Shown: positions 17,472 through 29,633 of the stretch, piece after piece
How the letters are laid out: the number at the start of each line of letters is the position of its first letter
How positions within the stretch are numbered: position 1 is the stretch's first letter
Origin: Dictyobacter arantiisoli
Lineage (GTDB): Bacteria; Chloroflexota; Ktedonobacteria; Ktedonobacterales; Ktedonobacteraceae
Assembly (NCBI RefSeq): GCF_008326305.1
Contig: NZ_BIXY01000087.1
Location: 1 to 32,524 of the forward strand
Length of the DNA stretch: 32,524 bases
Direction of reading: 5' to 3'
Made by a program: the position numbers and the translations under genes
The notes under the pieces: generated by a model
Database searches by the model: none
Told to the model about the DNA's origin: nothing
The model's input: the letters and a program-made list of their open reading frames with translations, nothing else

Positions 17472-20054
17472 ATGGAACAGAAACAGCATATGCATTTTTC
17501 GCGGAATGGTGTAGAACAAAAAGAGCAGCAGAAACTTCAGGTACCTCCTCGGCTTTTACTACCCAGCTTTTCTCGGAAGACTGAGCCGGACAGTTTATCA
17601 CTCTCGGCAATCCCTGCCTCGTCTAATCAAAGCTGGAAGACTGATACGGCTATATCCTCTGGTCCTCATCTTCTTTCATTGCCTAGTCGTCCCATACCTG
17701 CGGTCAAGGATCAGGGGAGGGCACGCGTATTTCCCGCAGCGCAACAAGATATGAGAAGGCAAGGGAACTCTCAGAGGATGGCTGATGTAAAAGTCGTACC
17801 TGCCCAGACATCCTCAACACTGCAACTGGTCCAGCCGGGAACGCAGGAACCCCAACGGCAATCCTCATCAGCTATTTCCTCTCCTCGTCGCAAAAAACGT
17901 TGGCGTCGTGTTCATGAGTTGAGACAGATGAGTGCAGTTGAATGTGGCGCGTGCTGTCTCGCTATGATCTTGAATTATTATGGTTGTGCAGTGAGTGTTT
18001 CTGATGTTCAGGAACGCTGTGGCGTGGGCCGTGATGGACTCTCCGCTCTTTCTATTGTGAAGGCTGCCCGCCAATACGGGCTGCGGGTGCGCACCGTTTC
18101 GTTGAAAAAGAATGATTTTCGTTTCATCACATTGCCTGCAATCGCCCATTGGGATTTTAATCACTTTGTCGTTGTTGAGCGCTGGTCCAGCAGACATGTA
18201 GATATCATCGATCCAGCAACAGGGCATAGAAGATTATCTTATGCGGAGTTCGAAGAGAGTTTTACTGGCATCTTAATTATGCTCGAACCAGGCGCAAACT
18301 TTGAGCGGCAGGCTTCAACACATACACTTTCGCTCTGGACATATCTGCGATCTCTGCCGAACATGCGAGGTGTCTTTGTGCAGATTATTGGCATTTCCCT
18401 CTTGCTGCAAATTATTGGGCTGGGCGCGCCGCTGTTGACACAGACGATCATAGATTATGTTATTCCAACAAAAGCCACTAATCTCTTAATTATGCTCGGT
18501 ATAAGTATGCTCTTTCTGATTATGATGCAAGGAGTTATGAAGTTACTACGCGTTTCTTTGCTTATCTATCTACAAACGCGTATCGATGCTCAAATGATGC
18601 TACATTTTCTTGAACATTTACTCAGCTTATCTTACCGCTTTTTCCAGATGCGTTTGAATGGTGATCTTCTGGCACGTACAGAAAGTAACACGGCAATCCG
18701 TGACCTGCTAACAGGTCAGATGATCTCTACTTTGCTCGATGGCTCTTCTGTGATTGTTTATCTTATTGTCTTGATAATGCAGTCGAAGCTCTTTGCTGGC
18801 GTTACTGTGGTTATTGGCATGGTTCAGGTAGGGTTGCTGTTGACTACAGCTTCAGCAATTCGCCGACTGACCATGCGTGATCTGATTGCGCAGGGAAAAA
18901 CGCAGGGATACCTGAACGAGGTATTGACCGGTATTGCTACGGTGAAGGCGGCTGGAGCGGAACAGCGCGTACTGGCTCGCTGGACAAATCTCTTTTTTGA
19001 TGAAATGAATATCTCTAATCGTCGCAACTATTTCCAGGCTATTATAGGTATTACGTTTGAGATTTTGCAGTTCTTATCGCCTCTATTACTTCTTTGGATA
19101 GGAGCCGCGCAAGTAATCAGTGGCACAATGTCGGTTGGCTCCATGCTGGCACTTAGCACCCTGGCGGTCTCATTTCTGGTTCCTCTCAGTTCGTTGGCTT
19201 CTAGTGGACAAAAGATGCAAATAGCGCATGCGCACTTTGATCGTCTGGCGGATGTGCTTGGGAGTGAAGCGGAGCAAGATTTACAGCAAGTTCAGCTACC
19301 TCCTCGCTTGAAGGGAAGTCTCGAACTGAGACATGTAAGTTTTCAGTATGATCCAAATACGCCACCTATTTTGAACGATATTGCCGTGCGTATTCGACCT
19401 GGACAAAAGGTGGCACTGGTTGGCAAAACGGGTTCTGGCAAGAGCACGCTGGGCAAGTTGCTTATCGGGCTGATAACCCCTACAAAGGGGGAGATCCTGT
19501 ATGACGGCATACCTCTGCAGAAACTCAATTATCAGGAGATACGGCGACAGTTTGGGGTAGTCCTACAGGAGTCCTTTATTTTCAGTGGATCGGTGCGTGA
19601 AAATATCGCTTTCAATAACCCGGATATGAATATGAAGCAGATTATTCGAGCAGCTAAGGCTGCAGCCATTCATGAGGATATTGAAAAGATGCCTATGAAA
19701 TATGAAACGTTACTTTCAGAAGGTGGAAGCGCCTTTTCTGGCGGACAGCGTCAACGTCTGGCACTGGCCCGCGCCCTGGCGAATAATCCTGCGATGATCT
19801 TGCTTGATGAGGCTACCAGCGCCCTGGATGTTACAACCGAACGGGCGGTTGAGCAAAGCCTCAATAGTCTCTCTTGTACGCAAATCGTGATTGCTCATCG
19901 GTTGAGCACAGTTCGTAACGCAGACCTCATTCTCGTGTTGGATCAAGGGCGTATCGTGGAGCAGGGCACACATAACCGTTTGCTCCAACGCGGCGGCTTC
20001 TATGCTCATTTGATTGAGGTACAGATGGAGAATGGCGAGATTGGAGTTGCGTGA
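17472..20054 (+). CDS. C39-peptidase ABC exporter (PCAT) with N-terminal extension
   Basis: This 860-aa bacteriocin-type exporter cuts double-glycine leaders and pumps out the mature peptide. Residues 1-145 are a low-complexity Gln/Ser/Pro/Arg-rich extension not found in typical members. The C39 peptidase (146-275) has Gln152, Cys158 (SAVECGACC), His231 (DFNHFVVVERW) and Asp247 (IIDPATG). The membrane domain (~285-600) has about six helices. The ATPase (~615-860) has Walker A GKTGSGKST (651-659), Q-loop Gln699, signature FSGGQR (755-760), Walker B MILLDEAT (775-782) and His809. All catalytic residues are present, so it should be active. The ribosome site is weak (AAAAGG 12 nt upstream), and translation may depend on coupling to the adaptor. 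The start could be later, inside the extension, for which no better site is seen. Confidence 0.93.
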   Translation: MEQKQHMHFSRNGVEQKEQQKLQVPPRLLLPSFSRKTEPDSLSLSAIPASSNQSWKTDTAISSGPHLLSLPSRPIPAVKDQGRARVFPAAQQDMRRQGNSQRMADVKVVPAQTSSTLQLVQPGTQEPQRQSSSAISSPRRKKRWRRVHELRQMSAVECGACCLAMILNYYGCAVSVSDVQERCGVGRDGLSALSIVKAARQYGLRVRTVSLKKNDFRFITLPAIAHWDFNHFVVVERWSSRHVDIIDPATGHRRLSYAEFEESFTGILIMLEPGANFERQASTHTLSLWTYLRSLPNMRGVFVQIIGISLLLQIIGLGAPLLTQTIIDYVIPTKATNLLIMLGISMLFLIMMQGVMKLLRVSLLIYLQTRIDAQMMLHFLEHLLSLSYRFFQMRLNGDLLARTESNTAIRDLLTGQMISTLLDGSSVIVYLIVLIMQSKLFAGVTVVIGMVQVGLLLTTASAIRRLTMRDLIAQGKTQGYLNEVLTGIATVKAAGAEQRVLARWTNLFFDEMNISNRRNYFQAIIGITFEILQFLSPLLLLWIGAAQVISGTMSVGSMLALSTLAVSFLVPLSSLASSGQKMQIAHAHFDRLADVLGSEAEQDLQQVQLPPRLKGSLELRHVSFQYDPNTPPILNDIAVRIRPGQKVALVGKTGSGKSTLGKLLIGLITPTKGEILYDGIPLQKLNYQEIRRQFGVVLQESFIFSGSVRENIAFNNPDMNMKQIIRAAKAAAIHEDIEKMPMKYETLLSEGGSAFSGGQRQRLALARALANNPAMILLDEATSALDVTTERAVEQSLNSLSCTQIVIAHRLSTVRNADLILVLDQGRIVEQGTHNRLLQRGGFYAHLIEVQMENGEIGVA

Positions 20055-20278: not shown

Positions 20279-22792
20279 CTATTTGAATGCGTAGGAGAAG
20301 ATGTGCATAAAACCATCTCCTGGTAGGGTGATACTCTGCACTGTGCTTGTGGAGTCTATTGTAAATTCAGCAAAATAAATGTAATTTTTAATTTGCTGCT
20401 TGCCGGTATGCGTATTTCGATAACTCATGGTTGCTGCAACGGTACCTGATGTATTGTTACACCAGTCAGCGAAGGAGAGGGAGATCACCTGGGTGTGACC
20501 ATCTGCATATGTGATAGTTGCCTTGCCACTTGTACCACCATTGATGGCAGAGCCCAGGAAGGCCACTGTTTTCGCACCAACGGGAGGTGTAACATTCAGT
20601 ACCTGAGCAGCTACAATATTGTTATCCAGCGTGCCAGCCGCAGGCCAGGCAAAACTATAACCATTGAAACCGAAATTTTGATTCGCCACCAGACCGGCAC
20701 TTTGCAGCGCCTGAGCTGAATAGCTGCTACCGTTGTTTCCATCAAAGGCCCCAATTGCCGGCGCATTATCATTGGTAATACCGACATTATTGTAGTTGCC
20801 GGATCGCTCGGCTGCTGCAAAGATATGCATCGTACCACCAACAGTATTTTGTGGTAGTTGCACACTGACCAGGGTTTTATCAGCTGCCAACGGAACCTCA
20901 TTATAGTAGAGATAATTTTTTGTTGCTTGCTTCCCATAGGCAGTATTGCGGTATGATAGGGCAGCAGCTATATAATTATGCGTACTACCAGTGCTGGCAC
21001 ACCAGTCGGAGAAGCTCAAGGGAGCCGTTGCGACGGTACCATCACTGTAATTTAAGGTTACCGAACCGGTTGATGCGCCACCAGTTGCTGATCCCAGGAA
21101 GGCCAGGGCGTTGGCACCAGTTACATCGTTCACCGGGATAACCTGTCCATTCGCCACCCAGTTGTCTGGAGATAAACCTGCACCATACATTACCGTAAAA
21201 CTGGTTCCGTTGATCGTGAATGGACGTACTGTTTTGCTTGTGCTAAAGAGGATACCAGCGCTCTGCAGAGCTTCTCCGGAGTAACTACGACCACCACCAT
21301 CGAAATTTCCAAAGATTGGTCTATTATCATCAGTGACACCCACGCTATCGAAGAAACCAGCGACACCGGTTGCAATCGAGTAGACGTGAATATGGCCTTG
21401 ATTGGTTGTTGAGGGTAGAGTGACACTTTTGACCGTTTTGGTAGGGTCTACGTTGGTTTCTGTATAGAAGAGAAATGTTCGTAGCTGCTGCTGTCCAGTA
21501 CGTGTGTTGCGATCAGGCATAGCATAGAAGTAGTGGTTGCCATACGAAGGAGGTTGAGAATAAGCATTCAATGTCCAATCGCTAAAACCCAGTTGGAAAG
21601 ATGTCTGGGAACCATCGGTGTAATTGATCAAAGCGGTGCCAACGGAGGGACCACCGGTTGCTGCACCGACAAAACCAATTTTTGTTGCGCTGGCAAGCGG
21701 AGTTACCGCGATGGTCTGGCCGTTTGCCTGATAGTTATCGGGAGTGCCTGGTAGCACATCAGGCCATTGGAAACTCATATTAGAGCTGCCAGCAAGATTC
21801 TGGTTATAATAGATGGTATAGCCTGTTCCCCAGCCTATTGCTGCGGCAGAATAGCTAGCGCCACCACCATCAAAATTTCCTATTCCTGGATATGCATCAT
21901 CACTCATACCAGTGTTATTGTACGGGGTGGTATAGCTAGCGGCACGAGCACCATATGTGAAGATATGTAACTGAGCATTACCAGTCGATGAGGGCAATTT
22001 GACACTCACTGCCTGTTTCGTGGGATTTGGATGAATCGTCGCATAGAAGAGATATGTTTTTACAGTTTGTGTTCCACCCTGACCGTTGCGATATGGCTGC
22101 ACAGCCACTATAGCATTGCCATAGGAGGGAGAAAGTTTTCCGCCACCCAGTGTCCAGTCGCTCAGGCCGAGCGAAAAGTTCTCCGTGCTATTATCACTGT
22201 ATGTGACGGTGACGGTACCGCTGCCAGCGCCATTTGTTGCGGAACCAATAAAGCCGATTACCTGTGTATTTGTTTGTGAGATCGGAAGTACCTGCCCGCT
22301 GGCCTGCCAGTTGTCAGGCTGTGTGGAATTAGTTTTGTTATCGATGTTTGGCCAGCCGAATTGGATGCCATCATAAATAAAAGGTAGACCAGGTTCAATA
22401 TTGGTTGTGATCAATGCGTTTTGTGAATAGCTGTAGCCTGAAGTATCGAAGTGACCGGCATTCGCTGTTGAGTTATAACTAATGCCAACATTGTTATAAG
22501 CAGGCACGTTGATTGCGGCTCTATTCAATGCATTGGTGTGTAGCGGTTGGCGAGGTGGTACCGCGTAAAAAGAAGATTGGGCTTTACTTTGATACGTCGA
22601 AACATCGCCAACAAGACCTGGAGCTGCCGCCTTCGAAGTGTGGGACTGTGTAAGTATACTGGTGGCGGAGAAAGCCGCGCCAGCTAGCACTATCAGTGTA
22701 AGGAATGAGGTGATCAAGGCCCGTTTATGTCGACGGATGAAGATTGGTCGCGCTAATGGCGAAGAATCCCCTTGACTATGGTCCGGATTCAT
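20279..22792 (-). CDS. Secreted/anchored protein of four tandem beta-sandwich-like domains (paralogue A)
   Basis: This is an 837-aa protein. A basic cytoplasmic start and a membrane/signal helix (~25-46: ALITSFLTLIVLAGAAFSAT) precede a ~50-residue linker. Four repeats follow at ~99-284, 290-476, 480-666 and 668-837. Each repeat runs NVG-x-x-x-D (YNNVG) -> FDGGG-x-SYS -> F-x-WP -> DN-x-x-A-GQ-x-x-x -> FLGSA-x-G -> T-x-x-Y-x-DG -> L-x-FSDW -> YRN -> YLFY -> S-x-x-LP -> MHIF. I know this block as the accessory beta-sandwich module found at the ends of actinobacterial glycosidases, where it probably binds sugars or polymer. Here there is no catalytic domain at all. It may form a surface layer, adhesin or matrix protein. 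GGGAGA lies 11 nt before the ATG. It shares domain order and length with the gene at 29842-32355. Confidence 0.8.
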   Translation of the reverse strand: MNPDHSQGDSSPLARPIFIRRHKRALITSFLTLIVLAGAAFSATSILTQSHTSKAAAPGLVGDVSTYQSKAQSSFYAVPPRQPLHTNALNRAAINVPAYNNVGISYNSTANAGHFDTSGYSYSQNALITTNIEPGLPFIYDGIQFGWPNIDNKTNSTQPDNWQASGQVLPISQTNTQVIGFIGSATNGAGSGTVTVTYSDNSTENFSLGLSDWTLGGGKLSPSYGNAIVAVQPYRNGQGGTQTVKTYLFYATIHPNPTKQAVSVKLPSSTGNAQLHIFTYGARAASYTTPYNNTGMSDDAYPGIGNFDGGGASYSAAAIGWGTGYTIYYNQNLAGSSNMSFQWPDVLPGTPDNYQANGQTIAVTPLASATKIGFVGAATGGPSVGTALINYTDGSQTSFQLGFSDWTLNAYSQPPSYGNHYFYAMPDRNTRTGQQQLRTFLFYTETNVDPTKTVKSVTLPSTTNQGHIHVYSIATGVAGFFDSVGVTDDNRPIFGNFDGGGRSYSGEALQSAGILFSTSKTVRPFTINGTSFTVMYGAGLSPDNWVANGQVIPVNDVTGANALAFLGSATGGASTGSVTLNYSDGTVATAPLSFSDWCASTGSTHNYIAAALSYRNTAYGKQATKNYLYYNEVPLAADKTLVSVQLPQNTVGGTMHIFAAAERSGNYNNVGITNDNAPAIGAFDGNNGSSYSAQALQSAGLVANQNFGFNGYSFAWPAAGTLDNNIVAAQVLNVTPPVGAKTVAFLGSAINGGTSGKATITYADGHTQVISLSFADWCNNTSGTVAATMSYRNTHTGKQQIKNYIYFAEFTIDSTSTVQSITLPGDGFMHIFSYAFK

Positions 22793-23006: not shown

Positions 23007-23062
23007 TAAAGTATAGTAACTTATGGATCTATTAGTGTAAAATCATAGGTTACTATACTTTA
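23007..23062. repeat. Long inverted repeat, 14-bp perfect arms extending to 19 bp
   Basis: TAAAGTATAGTAAC (23007-23020) and GTTACTATACTTTA (23049-23062) are perfect complements. After one T-G pair the helix continues with TATG/CATA. The loop is ~18 nt and AT-rich. The long arms could be a two-site operator, the ends of a small miniature element or an RNA hairpin. It lies about 215 bp upstream of surface protein A. Confidence 0.7.
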
Positions 23063-23315: not shown

Positions 23316-23377
23316 AAAAAGAGAAAAATGTAAGTTGAGGCTGGATGCAGGCGCAGCTTACATCCAGCCTCAACTTA
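23316..23377 (-). terminator. Rho-independent terminator of the membrane-HTH gene
   Basis: A 17-bp perfect stem is formed by TAAGTTGAGGCTGGATG (23331-23347) and its complement (23361-23377). On the minus strand it is followed by CATTTTTCTCTTTTT. It ends 45 bp after the stop codon of the gene at 23422-24801. Confidence 0.9.
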
Positions 23378-23421: not shown

Positions 23422-24801
23422 TTAATGTGATTCCATTACAGGTTGTTTAGTTTTTCGTTTGTTCATATATGCATTGACACTTGAGACTTTGATTTTATTG
23501 CTTTCATCGGTAACGAGGACGCCCTGGCTACGCAGTTCGCGGATACGGCGCTCCGATACCGCTAAGGCTTCCGCAGCTTCGGGAACTGTCATCGGCTTAC
23601 GACGTGTCAATTTTCCTGTGTTGGAGGAGATCTTGGACATAGAAGATGTATCACCTGTTGGGATATAGGGAAGCATATCCTCCATGGTGAGGAAGGTATC
23701 TACATCTTCTCCACCAGCCCAGGCGGGGAGTAGTACATCATTTTCGCTACTATCTTTCTTTTCGAATAGCTCTTCTCCATCCGTTTCCAACGCCATGCTA
23801 TCCAGCTGACCATCGATGATATACTGCGATGCCTCCATGGAAAGCGGTTCAGTGATAAACTTCTGCTCACCCTCCATCTCAGCTACGCTATCATCCCTGG
23901 TGAGTATGACCGCTTCTTGCGCAGCATGTTGATGGGCGAAGAAAGCTGTGCTTGCCGCCTGAGCCATAGTATTGGATGCTGGTTGCGCTTCAGCATAGGC
24001 AGCCTGCGGTGCTGATGGCATGGCATTCTCTGCTGGAACAACTGGCGGAATGGCAATTTCCTGAACCTGTTCCGTCTCTGCTATGGGAGCCTGTGATGCA
24101 GGCGTCTGCTCTGCGAGATCGGATTGCATGAATTGAGCCGCTAGCGTGGTTGCATCTTCTCTCTCTGCTCTCTCCTCTGGCTGCTTGGCAGTAGCTTGTT
24201 CTGGTTCTGTGGTCAAAACTTCGTTGACAGCCGCACGCGCTTCTAAAGCTGTATTCTTGACACGCTGAATGACGCCTGGTTGTTTTGTGCGTTCCTTATA
24301 AGCGAGTAATCGACGCTGCTGTTCCTCTAACTGTTCAAGTTCGTCAACCTTGGCCGCCAGTTCTGCCGCAGTCTCAGTTTTAGAGCTAAAGAATTCCGCA
24401 ACCACCGAATAGGCAAGATTTAAGAAGGCAAATGATGAGGCCAGAATGGGATTAAGCATTCTCAATGTATCGTTTACACGAAGATCATTTCCTTGATAGG
24501 TCATGGCATACTCCCAGTTGACGAACCAGCTAAAGGCGGTCAACGCAACGATGAAGAGCCATGTAAACGACTGTGCATACCAGGGCATATTCTTGCGGAA
24601 GAACATCACGCCCACAGTCAGGACCAGCGAGGTCAGATCGATGCTCACCGCCAGCGTATAAGGATTCACCCAATCGGCGGGATCAGATTCAAAATTATGG
24701 AAAAAGGTGGCGACATGCCGGATTGAAGCCGCCAGGAATGCGATATATGCGAAGATAAAAATCACCCGGATAATAACGCGAAAAGCTCCTTGCCAGGTCA
24801 T
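23422..24801 (-). CDS. Four-TM membrane protein with coiled coil and C-terminal excisionase-type HTH
   Basis: This 459-aa protein of unknown function has four membrane helices at about 8-30, 47-68, 77-97 and 115-137. A charged helix that should form a coiled coil (AAELAAKVDELEQLEEQQRR, ~145-164) follows. Next is ~230 residues of Ala/Glu/Pro/Gln-rich linker, and residues ~402-450 form a MerR/excisionase-like helix-turn-helix (KPMTVPEAAEALAVSERRIR, then VNAYMNKRK). The membrane part resembles DUF2637/SpdB-type proteins of actinobacterial plasmids; that link is weak. The design suggests a DNA-binding head tethered to the membrane by a long flexible linker, useful for membrane-anchored gene control or DNA positioning. 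Start ATG follows GAGAGGA by 6 nt. It has its own terminator, so it is probably monocistronic. Confidence 0.7.
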   Translation of the reverse strand: MTWQGAFRVIIRVIFIFAYIAFLAASIRHVATFFHNFESDPADWVNPYTLAVSIDLTSLVLTVGVMFFRKNMPWYAQSFTWLFIVALTAFSWFVNWEYAMTYQGNDLRVNDTLRMLNPILASSFAFLNLAYSVVAEFFSSKTETAAELAAKVDELEQLEEQQRRLLAYKERTKQPGVIQRVKNTALEARAAVNEVLTTEPEQATAKQPEERAEREDATTLAAQFMQSDLAEQTPASQAPIAETEQVQEIAIPPVVPAENAMPSAPQAAYAEAQPASNTMAQAASTAFFAHQHAAQEAVILTRDDSVAEMEGEQKFITEPLSMEASQYIIDGQLDSMALETDGEELFEKKDSSENDVLLPAWAGGEDVDTFLTMEDMLPYIPTGDTSSMSKISSNTGKLTRRKPMTVPEAAEALAVSERRIRELRSQGVLVTDESNKIKVSSVNAYMNKRKTKQPVMESH

Positions 24802-25353
24802 TAGCAGTCCTCTCTAAACTATAAACGTGCTATCAGCTCTTCTATCCTATCAGTTAGATGCAATGCATTTCTACTGCCGGTGAATGATCCACAGTGATTA
24901 CTTCAACCTATGCAATCCTCTAAGAATGCAATACACAGAAACTATAGCATCTTTTTCGTGCTTGGCCCGTCCGAAATCAGGCCCATAAAGCGACCTGAGA
25001 ACAAGTGTGAGCCACTATTAAACTCTTCGGTTTCAGCCTATAAAAACTCACCCCCTATAGCCCGAAGGTCATTGTCCGCTTCCTTCCTTCGCCTGTTTTG
25101 CTATCCCGAAATGAATGCGCCACAGGCCCAAATAGCCGCAAAAAGATAGCTGCTGATTATGTATGTAAATCGGTAGCTATCTTTTTATGCCAGGGATGTG
25201 ATTTCTACAGTGGTCGGGTTGTTCATTGATGATCATTACTTTCGACATATCTGAGATTATGTCTTTTCGTACTCCTTCTTTTTAGCCCTTTTCTTCTATA
25301 CTATGCTCAGCCTTGAGGACAAGATGTGTTTCATATGAAGGAGTTTTGCAGGT
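24802..25353. other. Divergent intergenic region with an orphan terminator, possible small RNA
   Basis: About 550 bp lie between two divergent genes. A strong bidirectional terminator at 25140-25186 lies inside it, although no gene ends there, so a short transcript from 24.9-25.1 kb is likely. A 79-codon frame (24910-25149) runs into the terminator stem and lacks a ribosome site and any family features. The ABC operon promoter should lie between 25190 and 25330. Confidence 0.45.
25140..25186. terminator. Orphan bidirectional terminator
   Basis: AAAAAGATAGCT (25140-25151) pairs with AGCTATCTTTTT (25175-25186). Weaker pairing (GCTGAT with ATCGGT, including G-T pairs) extends the stem to about 18 bp around an 11-nt loop. 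T-runs flank it on both strands. Confidence 0.85.
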
Positions 25354-26181
25354 ATGCAAGAGTCATTGCCAGAAATTGCGCAGACTATCAAAACGGGACC
25401 AATCCATCTGCCGGACGATGGCCGTGCGGTTGAAGTTGACGTTCAGCGGCTCGTGAAAACCTTTGGCAAACATGAGGCGGTGAAAGAGATTTCTTTCACT
25501 ATTGGCAAAGGGGAGATCTTTGGATTACTTGGTCCTAACGGAGCAGGCAAGAGCACTACTATTAATATGATGTGTGGCTATCTTGAACCAACTTCCGGGG
25601 ATACGTTCATTGGCAATCAGTCAATCACCAGATTGCCGCACAAGGTGAAGCGTATGATTGGGGTTGTGCCCCAGGAAATAGCTCTCTACACTGATCTGAA
25701 TTCTCTGGAGAATCTGAATTTCTTTGGTGAGATCTATGGATTATCCTCACAGGAGCGCAAGGAGCGTTCGCTGGATTTGCTGCATTTCGTTGAGCTCTAT
25801 GATAGGCGTAAAGAGCCGGTAAAAAACTTCTCAGGCGGCATGCAGCGCCGCTTGAACATGGCTATCGCTTTGATACACCAGCCCGCCTTTCTGATGATGG
25901 ATGAGCCAACCGTTGGGGTCGACCCCCAATCCCGTGAGCATATCTTTAGTTCCATTGAGCGGCTTCGTGATCAGGGAACGACTATTCTCTACACAACCCA
26001 CTATATGGAAGAGGCTGAGCGACTCTGCAATCATATCGCTATTATGGATGAAGGGAAGATCATTGCGCTGGGAACGTTGGAACAATTGTTGACCCTGCGT
26101 GACCAGAATCGTGAAGTGCAACGACCCCATGGACTGCAAGAACTCTTCATCCAACTGACCGGAAAAACCTTACGCGACTGA
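25354..26181 (+). CDS. ABC exporter ATP-binding protein (ABC-2/drug-resistance type)
   Basis: This 275-aa ATPase drives the adjacent permease. Walker A is GPNGAGKST (60-68), the Q-loop is Gln107 (VVPQEIALY), the signature is NFSGGMQRRLNMA (158-170), Walker B is FLMMDEPTVGVDP (179-191) and the switch is His216 (TTHYMEEAE). The TVGVDP D-loop and the TTHYMEEAE block are typical of the DrrA/CcmA/NatA class that exports drugs, lipids or polysaccharides. The first ~25 residues are a short extra N-terminus. The ribosome site is GAAGGAG, 10 nt upstream. The permease follows within a few bases, and the operon continues with a response regulator and a histidine kinase, so this is a stress- or antibiotic-responsive exporter by inference. 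Confidence 0.93.
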   Translation: MQESLPEIAQTIKTGPIHLPDDGRAVEVDVQRLVKTFGKHEAVKEISFTIGKGEIFGLLGPNGAGKSTTINMMCGYLEPTSGDTFIGNQSITRLPHKVKRMIGVVPQEIALYTDLNSLENLNFFGEIYGLSSQERKERSLDLLHFVELYDRRKEPVKNFSGGMQRRLNMAIALIHQPAFLMMDEPTVGVDPQSREHIFSSIERLRDQGTTILYTTHYMEEAERLCNHIAIMDEGKIIALGTLEQLLTLRDQNREVQRPHGLQELFIQLTGKTLRD

Positions 26182-26203
26182 TTGTATGAGATACAAGGAG
26201 CGA

Positions 26204-27478
26204 ATGAGTATGCGAACACTCTGGTCTATTGCTAAAAAAGATTTGTTACAGGTACTCAAAGATAGAAGTGCCCTGGTGCTTATGCTGGTGGTCCCTCTGG
26301 TGCTGATTACAGTTGTGGGCTTTGCCTTTGGCAGTTTCTATGGCGATGGAAGCAGCCAACTTCAAATCACAGTTGCGTTGAGTAATCAAGAAAGCGCGCA
26401 TGATGCCTTTATTGGCAAGATCCTCACCAACGCCCTCAAAATCAATACCAGCCAGCTTATGATCACTGTACATGAGTATGCTGATCCGGCCCAGGTGATC
26501 AGCCAGGTTACGAGCACATCAAGTGATGCGGCGGCTGTGGGCATCGTAATTCCTGCGAATGCCAGCCAGACGTTGCTGAATGACTTACAACAGGGAAGTA
26601 CTCCCAAAAATCTTGTGCGTTTTTATTCGTCGCCTGGCAGCAGTGATGCACGTGTGACGGTTGTACAGAATATTGTCCATGAGGTGCTGCAATCACAACT
26701 TGTGGGAAGCGCGGGTGTTGGTCAGGTCTATCAGGTCTGTAATCATCCTGGAAATCATTGTGCTCAAAATACTATGGATGCCATCGCTATTCAAGCTGCG
26801 CTCACCAGGGCCAGTATCCAGTCTGATCAGGCCATACAGTCATTGACAGCGGGGAATGCTATCAAGGTCGGACCATTTGATCAGGCCGTGCCTGGCTATG
26901 CGATCTTCTTCTCACTCTTTGGCCTCAATGCTGTTGCAGCTACGATCTTACAGGAGAAGGAAGATGGTACTTTCCGCCGCCTGCTGATTGCCCCTATCCA
27001 GAAATATGCTCTGCTGGGTGGCAAAATGCTGGCACAGTTTCTGCTGACGCTGGCACAACTATTGATACTCTTTCTGATTGGCTACTTTGTTTTCAAAATG
27101 CATATTGGCAATTGGTTGGCAGTCATTTTGCTGTTGATCGGCACCAGTTTTGCCGCCACTGGTTTGGGGATGGTCCTGGTGTCGCTGGTCAGATCCCGTC
27201 GTCAGATTAGTCCAGTGGTCAGCCTGGTTACGCTCGTTACCTCTGCCATTGGTGGGGCCTGGTGGCCGCTCTTTCTGGAGCCAACCTGGATGCAGCAAGT
27301 CGCTAAAATAGGCATTACCGCCTGGGCGATGGAAGGATTGAATGGTACAATGATCCTCGGAAAAGGCTTTACGGAGGTACTACCCGATATCCTGGCATTG
27401 CTAGTCTACGGCTTGATTTGCTTTATCTTTGCCATGAGATTTTTCCGCTTTCAGGAAAAGACGGCGGTTGCGAAGTGA
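26204..27478 (+). CDS. ABC-2 type permease
   Basis: This 424-aa membrane partner of the ATPase has an N-terminal MRTLWSIAKKDLLQVLKDRS amphipathic entry and the first membrane helix (LVLMLVVPLVLITVVGFAFG). A ~190-residue extracytoplasmic loop follows, then five C-terminal helices with the ABC-2 permease hallmarks EKEDGTFRRLLIAPI and GGAWWPLFLEP. It would form a homodimeric exporter. The annotated ATG follows AAGGAG by 3 nt, the next ATG (26210) by 9 nt, and an upstream ATG at 26186 lacks a site; 26210 is an equally good start. Spacing to the ATPase stop is 22 nt. The substrate cannot be told from sequence. Confidence 0.9.
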   Translation: MSMRTLWSIAKKDLLQVLKDRSALVLMLVVPLVLITVVGFAFGSFYGDGSSQLQITVALSNQESAHDAFIGKILTNALKINTSQLMITVHEYADPAQVISQVTSTSSDAAAVGIVIPANASQTLLNDLQQGSTPKNLVRFYSSPGSSDARVTVVQNIVHEVLQSQLVGSAGVGQVYQVCNHPGNHCAQNTMDAIAIQAALTRASIQSDQAIQSLTAGNAIKVGPFDQAVPGYAIFFSLFGLNAVAATILQEKEDGTFRRLLIAPIQKYALLGGKMLAQFLLTLAQLLILFLIGYFVFKMHIGNWLAVILLLIGTSFAATGLGMVLVSLVRSRRQISPVVSLVTLVTSAIGGAWWPLFLEPTWMQQVAKIGITAWAMEGLNGTMILGKGFTEVLPDILALLVYGLICFIFAMRFFRFQEKTAVAK

Positions 27479-27599
27479 TGTTGCCTGGATCGTGAAGCCG
27501 TCCTCGCCGTTGTATTGCTGCATGGGATAGCTCTGGTGCGATTGCATCCAGATCAATCATGCCAGAGCTATCGCTTAACCTGGAAGAGAGAGATGAACG

Positions 27600-28274
27600 A
27601 TGACCGATCTGATTCGCATTTTGCTTTGTGAGGATCAAACACTCATGCGCCTGGGGCTACGTACCATCTTTGAACTGGAACCGGGTTTTCAAATCGTTGG
27701 CGAGGCGGCAGATGGTGAAGAGGCCGTGAGCCAGTATGGCAAATTGCACACTCAGGGTGATGGTCCTGATATTGTGCTCATGGATATTCAAATGCCGCGT
27801 CTGAGCGGTGTGCAAGCGACCGCTTTACTCACCACCAGCGATCCCGCCGCACGTGTGATTATCCTCACCACCTTCGACTATGAAGATTATGTATTTGAGG
27901 CCATCAAGGCAGGAGCCATGGGCTATCTCCTTAAAGATGTACCTGCTACTGAACTGATGGCAACGATTCGTCAGGTGTATGCGGGCGAACCATCCATCCA
28001 ACCCAGGATCGCTTATAAGCTTCTCCTCGAATTTGGCCGTAATAGTCGTGTTGCTGCTGAGCCAGCCCGTTCAACGCACCTGGAACAACTGAGTCCACGC
28101 GAAATTGAAATTCTTAAATTGCTCGCTGAAGGAGCAAGTAATCGCAAGATCGCAGAGCAACTTGTGCTGGCCGAAGGAACGGTGAAAAATCATGTCAGCA
28201 ACATCTTGAGCAAGCTTCATATTGAGAACCGTACTCAGGCAGCGTATCTGGCCCGAGAGCGCAAACTGTTCTAA
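27600..28274 (+). CDS. Two-component response regulator, NarL/LuxR family
   Basis: This 224-aa regulator has an N-terminal receiver with the acidic pair Glu11-Asp12, phospho-acceptor Asp62 (VLMDIQMPRLSG), Thr90/91 and Lys112 (LLKDVPA). A linker leads to a C-terminal LuxR-type helix-turn-helix (LSPREIEILKLLAEGASNRK, then GTVKNHVSNILSKLHI, ~161-208). It is paired with the histidine kinase 12 nt downstream, and follows the ABC exporter by 121 nt. The likely job is control of that exporter or of the surface-protein gene beyond the kinase. Start ATG has GAGAGAG 8-10 nt upstream. Confidence 0.95.
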   Translation: MTDLIRILLCEDQTLMRLGLRTIFELEPGFQIVGEAADGEEAVSQYGKLHTQGDGPDIVLMDIQMPRLSGVQATALLTTSDPAARVIILTTFDYEDYVFEAIKAGAMGYLLKDVPATELMATIRQVYAGEPSIQPRIAYKLLLEFGRNSRVAAEPARSTHLEQLSPREIEILKLLAEGASNRKIAEQLVLAEGTVKNHVSNILSKLHIENRTQAAYLARERKLF

Positions 28275-28286
28275 AGGGAGGAAACT

Positions 28287-29633
28287 ATGTCGGCACACTT
28301 CGATATAGAGAAAGATAATATCTCTTTTTTTCGCATCTTCAAACGTGTCCTGATAGGAATGGTTATTCTCATCTGTACCTTTTTCGCTGGATTGACCTAT
28401 TCCATTCTAAACGCCAATCCCAGTTATATGCACGACTGGCGTGGATTTGTCTATATTGTGTTGGTCATCGTCGCCTTCTTGCTCTATGCTTGCCCTACGC
28501 TGTTTGCATTCTCCTGGCGGGACTGGCCGCCGCCATTAGGGTATGCTGTAAGTATATGGAGTGGACTATACCTCGTAGTTTTTTTGCTCACGCTCATCAA
28601 TAACACCTTCCAATGGGCTTTCTATGTCGTTTTTTCTATCAGCCTCAGCCTATTTAGTGGTCGTCGTCAGATCATCGCAGTGGCTATCATGGCTCTTACG
28701 CTGTTTGCCTTTCAAGGCTTATTGATCTGGCCGTTGAGTGGGGATGCCATTGTAAGCATTGTCAGCCAGGTTATGCCCATTTTTAGCATGACTGGTTTCA
28801 TCATCCTGTTCCAGCGTTTGGTCAAAGAGCGATTTGAGCGCAATACACTTTTTCAAAAGCTGGATCAGGCGAATAGCGAGTTAGCGGAAACCCATCGGCA
28901 GTTAGAGCAATCTATGGTTCAGAATCAGGAACTTGCGGTCTTGCGTGAGCGAACCAGGCTGGCGCGTGAGATGCATGATACCATCGGCCACGCCCTGGTC
29001 CTGATCTCCGTCAAGCTTGAAGCGGCCCAGAGGTTGCGTGAACGCGATCCCGGACGCTGCGAGCGTGAACTGGAATCCACCAAAGAGATTGCCCGTGAGG
29101 CAATGACTGTTTTGCGTGCCTCCATCGCTAACTTACGCTCTCCGGTCCTGGAACGTGAATCGATTAATCACGCACTCAGTCGTTCTGCCCGGGAACTGGC
29201 ACATCGCACTGGCCTGCACGTCACCTACACTTTACAGGCGGATATCGAGTGTCTCCCTGTCCCTGTTGAAGAAGCTCTCTGGAAGGTCAGCCAGGAGGCA
29301 TTTACCAATATCGAAAAGCATGCTCATGCCAGTCATGTGCAGGCGTGCATCAGTTGGCAGGATGAGAAATTGCTGATGCTCATTCACGATGATGGTGTCG
29401 GCTTACCTCAGCATTTGTACCAATCTCAGCAAGAAAATTGCCTTACGTATAGCAGCCCGGAAGGTCACTATGGATTGCGTGGCATGTTCGAACGTATAGA
29501 AGCCATTGGTGGTCAATTCACCCTGCGCTCTGGGCGAGAACAGGGCACAACCATCGAAATCGAACTCCCACTTGCCCACGTGGACAAGCGGGCATCGGCG
29601 CAGACGGAAGTTGAAATTGACAGACATCAATAA
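28287..29633 (+). CDS. Sensor histidine kinase, HisKA_3 (NarL-partner) type
   Basis: This 448-aa membrane kinase has six or so predicted helices in residues 18-175 with short loops. It has no large extracytoplasmic sensor, so it may sense the membrane or its own exporter, as LiaS/BceS-like kinases do. A coiled coil (185-220) leads to the dimerisation/phosphorylation helix with His230 (RTRLAREMHDTIGHALVLIS). The HATPase_c domain has N-box Asn341 (SQEAFTNIEKHAHA), G1 DDGVGLP (368-374) and G2 GHYGLRGM (393-400). All key residues are present. GGGAGG lies 6 nt upstream of the ATG. It is co-transcribed with its regulator; no exporter-sensor protein is fused. Confidence 0.93.
   Translation: MSAHFDIEKDNISFFRIFKRVLIGMVILICTFFAGLTYSILNANPSYMHDWRGFVYIVLVIVAFLLYACPTLFAFSWRDWPPPLGYAVSIWSGLYLVVFLLTLINNTFQWAFYVVFSISLSLFSGRRQIIAVAIMALTLFAFQGLLIWPLSGDAIVSIVSQVMPIFSMTGFIILFQRLVKERFERNTLFQKLDQANSELAETHRQLEQSMVQNQELAVLRERTRLAREMHDTIGHALVLISVKLEAAQRLRERDPGRCERELESTKEIAREAMTVLRASIANLRSPVLERESINHALSRSARELAHRTGLHVTYTLQADIECLPVPVEEALWKVSQEAFTNIEKHAHASHVQACISWQDEKLLMLIHDDGVGLPQHLYQSQQENCLTYSSPEGHYGLRGMFERIEAIGGQFTLRSGREQGTTIEIELPLAHVDKRASAQTEVEIDRHQ

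Follow-up and report, generated by a model that had tools for sequence, protein, structure and literature searches.

RacA serves as a chromosome anchor in Bacillus. In Streptomyces, the plasmid pSVH1 encodes SpdB2, reported as an integral membrane spread protein with non-specific DNA binding, oligomerisation and interaction with TraB (PMC4170104), and TraB has been reported together with Spd proteins at vegetative septa (PMC5133688). Plasmids and phages of Streptomyces also encode the DUF2637 proteins (PF10935), the linkers of which are proline/alanine-rich in the plasmid members. Two of five Streptomyces plasmid records carry the order FtsK, small gene and DUF2637 gene, the last encoding four transmembrane helices, a linker and a helix-turn-helix (HTH) domain; no annotated FtsK is found near DUF2637 in the three other plasmid records or in 3/3 phage records. 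Thirty-six DUF2637 loci taken from the viral catalogue (IMG/VR), one of them cut by a contig end, have varied C-termini. All six of those taken through Pfam match DUF2637, and three of the proteins, picked for their tails, also match HTH_17/MerR, one with an HTH_17 score over the cut-off. Two phage proteins labelled 'excisionase' (L051, 5001-5771, and L053, 4983-5744; PHROG 733) are likewise of the DUF2637 kind, with N-terminal membrane helices, and the label of this PHROG may rest on the HTH end only.

Here we present a real, conserved and lineage-specific membrane protein with a DNA-binding fold, encoded in a 32,524-nucleotide stretch of the Dictyobacter arantiisoli genome (hereafter, the window). 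The window's genome contains a single match to this 459-aa protein. The gene and the parts of its product are:

23422..24801, minus strand: whole gene, 459 aa, ATG start
24379..24801, minus strand: residues 1-141, four-helix membrane domain (hydropathy, AlphaFold model, alignment)
24205..24378, minus strand: residues 142-199, two charged helices, read as a cytosolic coiled coil (model, alignment)
23746..24204, minus strand: residues 200-352, A/E/Q-rich disordered linker (model, ortholog comparison)
23602..23745, minus strand: residues 353-400, conserved pre-HTH stretch (52-81% identity to four orthologs)
23446..23601, minus strand: residues 401-452, winged HTH of the HTH_17/excisionase/MerR type (profile, dedicated model, structural matches)

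Hydropathy peaks lie at residues 9-27, 50-68, 76-94 and 119-137, and the full-length AlphaFold model, which has a modest mean pLDDT of 51.9, places membrane helices at 3-32, 45-67, 74-103 and 109-141. Because the N-terminus and loop 2 are basic and loop 1 is acidic, an N-in/C-in topology is predicted. The membrane helices are followed in the model by helices 145-171 and 175-197, which we read as a probable coiled coil, and then by disorder. Six residues of the membrane domain (S26, H29, D55, S91, N95 and P118) are invariant in 18 aligned sequences, the window's included. The domain has no significant match in Pfam, NCBIfam or PHROG; PHROG 736, a group with no annotated function, gave weak matches to 6/18 family members (best E 0.03). 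A fold search with the full-length model returned Orai (Z 8.8, rmsd 5.8), NINJ1 and designed bundles, matches that may reflect only a common helical-bundle arrangement. An RNA polymerase match to the same model in the viral structure library (E 0.001) had an rmsd of 44 and was taken as meaningless.

At the other end of the protein, the Pfam profile HTH_17 scores 29.2 bits on the isolated domain, over the cut-off of 27, and 24.1 bits, under it, on the whole protein. In the full-length model the HTH appears as one helix (406-425), with low confidence past residue 432. A dedicated model, built on a 27-sequence alignment enriched in HTH_17 proteins, has helices at 406-413, 417-426 and 439-452, a core pLDDT above 90 and three single strand/bridge residues at the position expected for a wing. 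Its structural matches are of the excisionase/MerR class (Xis, BldC, excisionases, MerR proteins and RacA). The top VIA-align match is Xis of mycobacteriophage Pukovnik (Z 7.5, rmsd 2.1 over 50 residues; Foldseek E 0.084), and the Foldseek scores of the model are weak throughout, the best E being 0.055 and none below 0.001.

An earlier note, made from the DNA alone, had let its proposal depend on the HTH-like segment having an HTH fold in a predicted structure, and this part of it stands, since the dedicated model is a winged, three-helix fold of the excisionase/MerR class. The domain search that it proposed for the separate parts identified the HTH and left the membrane part unmatched. The four helices, the linker and the HTH at the C-terminus were correctly described there, the coiled coil being read from predicted helices; the linker, put at ~230 residues, spans ~200 (200-400), but residues 353-400 are conserved between orthologs, so its free part would amount to ~150.

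One full-length copy of the gene is present in each of the five same-genus genomes examined, and the orthologs of Dictyobacter kobayashii, D. vulcani, D. aurantiacus and strain brp13 are 64-70% identical to the window's protein. Identity to these four is distributed very unevenly, reaching 93-95% in the membrane domain, 74-90% in the helical part (residues 142-199) and 76-90% in the HTH, and falling to 13-27% in the linker (residues 200-352). The full-length copies in 5/5 genomes and the agreement of the conservation blocks with the domains mean that the open reading frame (ORF) is not a chance one. Such a pattern would be expected, at the level of sequence, if the anchor and the DNA-binding head are both functional and the leash between them is free of sequence constraint.

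Using a profile of the membrane domain at E<=0.001, we found matches in 22 of 400 genomes of the phylum, one per genome, all of them in the class Ktedonobacteria (22 of 47 class genomes); the other genomes of the 400-genome sample gave no match at this threshold. Two of the 23 matches of an initial search were left out: that in G003 covers the HTH alone (residues 388-449), and that in G008 (E 0.0046) looked by eye like a metal-transport ATPase. A 666-aa protein of G046 (E 1.3e-12) was added only by the membrane-domain profile, and we did not count an additional G019 match (E 1.6e-4), which lies outside the membrane domain. Among the same-family genomes, 21/29 have a match; since the other eight are without one, the protein is not indispensable within the taxonomic family. 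The viral catalogue yielded one contig with a family member (L091), the plasmid and phage collections yielded none, and a description of this membrane family was not found in a search of the open-access literature. An HTH_17-like C-terminal end occurs in Dictyobacter and in L010, and most other relatives have a different C-terminal segment with weak HTH matches only (best E 0.012-0.035). Thus, in the genome samples searched, the membrane family appears confined to Ktedonobacteria, with a C-terminal end that apparently differs between lineages. Two relatives (L024, 427-1749, and L025, 787-2100) have two different putative DNA-binding segments, recognised partly by eye, in one protein, which suggests that the DNA-binding head is swapped through addition and loss.

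The window's gene stands between the gene of an 837-aa protein (20279-22792), which has Rib-type matches, and a cluster at 25354-29633 in which an ABC-2 transporter precedes a response regulator and a histidine kinase. A C39-peptidase ABC exporter lies at 17472-20054. No neighbour in the window suggests an operon with the gene, and neither FtsK nor TraB stands beside it. We compared the window with 17 related contexts by clustering their ORFs with BLAST; around the four same-genus orthologs ~8 kb per side was covered, and the comparison does not extend to the locus L124 or to the gene's surroundings in G039 and G040. The four same-genus ortholog stretches share a single ORF cluster with the window, ~18 kb from the window's gene. 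Among relatives with the other C-terminal segment, an NYN-domain gene is near in 9/10 contexts and an M42 peptidase gene in 8/10, L065 being an exception to both. The gene is divergent beside a 23S rRNA gene in four of eight such stretches scanned, and two further stretches held no 23S rRNA gene. Here the gene is an established part of the chromosome. In three same-genus genomes the gene lies 0.16-0.18 Mb from one of the two dnaA copies; the distances are 0.47 and 1.1 Mb in a fourth, 0.34 and 0.74 Mb in G035, and more than 1 Mb in G042 and in G038, the latter treated as circular. In G032, dnaA is on other contigs. Two matches to the DnaA C-terminal domain, all over the cut-off, were present in each of the eight genomes scanned (G023-G026, G032, G035, G038 and G042).

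Two of the 19 contexts examined, some of them short, have the family member beside a probable DNA translocase, with one of the two (L056) assigned weakly; the 17 others have none. On the 58.8-kb viral-catalogue contig L091, a 177-aa membrane protein and an FtsK/HerA-like ATPase lie directly upstream of the family member. This ATPase matches DUF87 over the cut-off (1.2e-5) and FtsK_SpoIIIE below it (0.0022), and the family profile scores the 177-aa protein weakly (E 0.0029, set of 18 sequences). On L056, a 17-kb contig of G032, the family member starts six bases downstream of a P-loop membrane ATPase, which has no Pfam or NCBIfam match and only weakly resembles the translocase of a Streptomyces plasmid (24.5% over 220 aa, E 2.8e-4 in a four-sequence database). 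A profile of six ATPases found no match in 18 contexts, that of L056 included, at default settings; with filters off and in a four-sequence set it found the L056 ATPase at E 7.3e-4, and it found the FtsK of two Streptomyces DUF2637 plasmids at E 7e-12 and 7e-9 (four-sequence set). In an unrooted FastTree phylogeny of 20 sequences, the L091 protein clusters with those of Dictyobacter (0.998), and the protein of L056 is next to them (0.889).

The L091-type FtsK is absent from all five same-genus genomes at E<=1e-5 and present in 3/47 class genomes, all three among the 22 with the family, numbers too few for co-occurrence. Five such genes were found in the class, three in G028 and the others in G001 and G032. 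In G028 a different membrane protein comes after each of them, one that combines a coiled coil or linker with a possible C-terminal HTH, the HTH matches being below the cut-off or by eye; these proteins have no detectable sequence relation to the window's family, and no such membrane protein lies downstream of the genes in G001 and G032. This translocase and membrane protein module recurs in G028 at L117 (4193-7513), L120 (1695-4715) and L121 (3-1910). In L117 and L120 a related membrane protein of 150-185 aa precedes the translocase, as in L091 and L119.

The DNA around the gene contains further features:

24802..25070, minus strand: conserved 5' region (~270 bp before the start), kept in 3/4 other same-genus genomes
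24926-24932, 24910-24916 and 24858-24864, minus strand: three ATTGCAT words, a candidate operator only (sequence)
23331..23377, minus strand: hairpin ~45 nt 3' of the gene, possible terminator (22-nt arms, 91% complementary)

In brp13 only about the last 60 bases of the 5' region align. The region has no Rfam match, and its predicted RNA structure has changes on both sides in 5/43 pairs (four sequences). The pair of words 16 bases apart, ATTGCAT-N9-ATTGCAT, is the sole exact occurrence in the genome; among the four aligned 5' regions this exact pair is in the window alone, whereas the third copy (24858-24864) is in 4/4. Across the window as a whole ATTGCAT occurs 10 times against 11.2 expected by chance, so the word is not enriched. 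A T-rich stretch comes after the 3' hairpin on the gene's strand, and the terminator scan did not list the hairpin. Inverted repeats with 19-nt arms are found in the intergenic stretches on either side of the gene (25140-25186 and 23007-23062).

How, then, is this protein to be classified, and what might it do? The earlier note had not recognised its architecture as a described family, which proved true of the membrane domain and too broad for the architecture, because DUF2637 proteins of actinobacteria already combine membrane helices, a linker and a C-terminal HTH, in some members of the HTH_17/MerR type. The identical order of parts raises the question of whether the family is a true DUF2637 member, so diverged that sequence similarity has decayed. 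By eye, four motifs recur in both at near-equal spacing, namely S-x2-H (helix 1), D (helix 2), S-x3-N (helix 3) and P (helix 4); this agreement was noted after the fact and is a hint only, and the H is not invariant in DUF2637. The profile comparisons were negative. PF10935 has no match in the window's genome at E<=10 and 20 in the 400 phylum genomes (E<=0.01), none at a family locus, and DUF2637 was not among the 25 families listed, of 33, in a Pfam scan of 18 family members. A 44-sequence DUF2637 profile with filters off gave E 0.43 or worse against family members, hhalign of the membrane domain with DUF2637 (8 and 44 sequences) gave a probability of 0.3%, and profile alignments were no better than column shuffles (438 and 441 of 600 at or above the observed score, z about -0.7). 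Membership by sequence is rejected on the PF10935, hhalign and shuffle results; since no sequence homology was detected, we do not file the family under DUF2637, and we regard common descent beyond the reach of these methods as unlikely. The HTH_17-type fold and its best structural match, Pukovnik Xis, might instead point to an excisionase or other directionality factor of an integrated element. We consider this the least probable of the readings, given a 459-aa membrane protein present once in each of the five same-genus genomes, the empty plasmid and phage collections and the lack of an integrase among ten window proteins scanned.

The earlier note had left two roles standing side by side, a tether of a chromosomal site to the membrane and a regulator of the flanking surface-protein genes. 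Local control of these and the ABC-exporter genes was suggested by the position of the gene between the Rib-type protein and the ABC/two-component cluster; it is very unlikely, because the nearby flanking genes are absent from the stretches around the orthologs in the four other same-genus genomes, three of which keep the gene's own 5' region. A broader possibility, and a serious one, is that of a membrane-bound one-component transcription regulator, in which the polar residues of the membrane helices would sense a signal and the leashed HTH would reach promoters, its own included. The strong conservation of S, H, D, N and P within the membrane, the resemblance of the HTH to BldC and MerR proteins, and a 5' region that holds a genome-unique repeat pair and is kept in three genomes even though the gene beyond it differs in the window, all agree with such a regulator. 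Against it, the protein shows no separate sensor domain, conservation of the exact repeat pair and of the 5' region is restricted as given above, and two relatives adjoin DNA-translocase-like ATPases. The only candidate DNA site, being in the gene's own 5' region, would suit a regulator equally well as a tether. It is the neighbourhood of probable DNA-pumping motors that suggests the holding of DNA at the membrane over the control of neighbouring genes. Since two of the nearest relatives in other genera have FtsK/HerA-like ATPases as neighbours on contigs that look mobile, one of these ATPases being weakly assigned, the protein most likely works like the Streptomyces spread and DUF2637-type proteins, and we tentatively favour, by a small margin over the membrane-bound regulator, a chromosomal, Spd/DUF2637-like membrane-DNA tether. 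The conservation of both ends around a free linker agrees with this. Several results count against it: the same-genus genomes lack the L091-type FtsK, the six-ATPase profile finds nothing in the 18 contexts at default settings, most of the DUF2637 records opened have no annotated FtsK nearby, the membrane domain shows no homology to DUF2637, eight of the 29 same-family genomes are without a match, and the distance to dnaA varies. The tethering claim of the earlier note thus fits the anatomy and the two ATPase-linked relatives, and the chromosomal site itself is putative.

As a tether, the 459-aa protein would be anchored in the membrane by its four helices, with both ends predicted to be cytosolic, and the helical part that follows may make it oligomeric. 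The long disordered leash would carry the winged HTH, which by its fold could bind DNA near the inner face of the membrane. DNA would thereby be held at a membrane site for movement or partitioning, as in segregation or transfer, with the chromosome served instead of a plasmid. A more specific and rather doubtful version is that a spread-type tether from a mobile element was domesticated as a chromosome organiser in the filamentous Ktedonobacteria. In this role it would hold defined sites of the chromosome at the membrane or the septum as the mycelium grows or sporulates, and its means of doing so would have no sequence relationship with ParB, RacA or DUF2637.

Membrane proteins that combine several helices with a DNA-binding head form a little-studied group, which these findings extend beyond the plasmids and phages of actinobacteria to the chromosomes of another phylum, the Chloroflexota, a phylum with mycelial members in which some relatives are linked to FtsK-type motors. 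Should the tether reading be true, the protein would offer a simple test system for chromosome anchoring and movement in filamentous bacteria. Among the known systems, RacA of Bacillus and BldC of Streptomyces share with it the MerR-type HTH; to our knowledge, neither has membrane helices. Pukovnik Xis has a similar HTH fold in a small, stand-alone protein. SpdB2 is, like the window's protein, integral to the membrane and is reported to have an FtsK-type partner, TraB, but it is plasmid-borne and its DNA binding is described as non-specific (PMC4170104); the likeness is one of description. The DUF2637 proteins have a membrane domain with no detectable sequence similarity to that of the window's family and, in some plasmids, an FtsK neighbour, whereas the window's is a single chromosomal gene without such a neighbour; they are alike in the N-terminal membrane helices, the disordered-looking linker and the C-terminal HTH, which in some members is, as here, of the HTH_17/MerR type.
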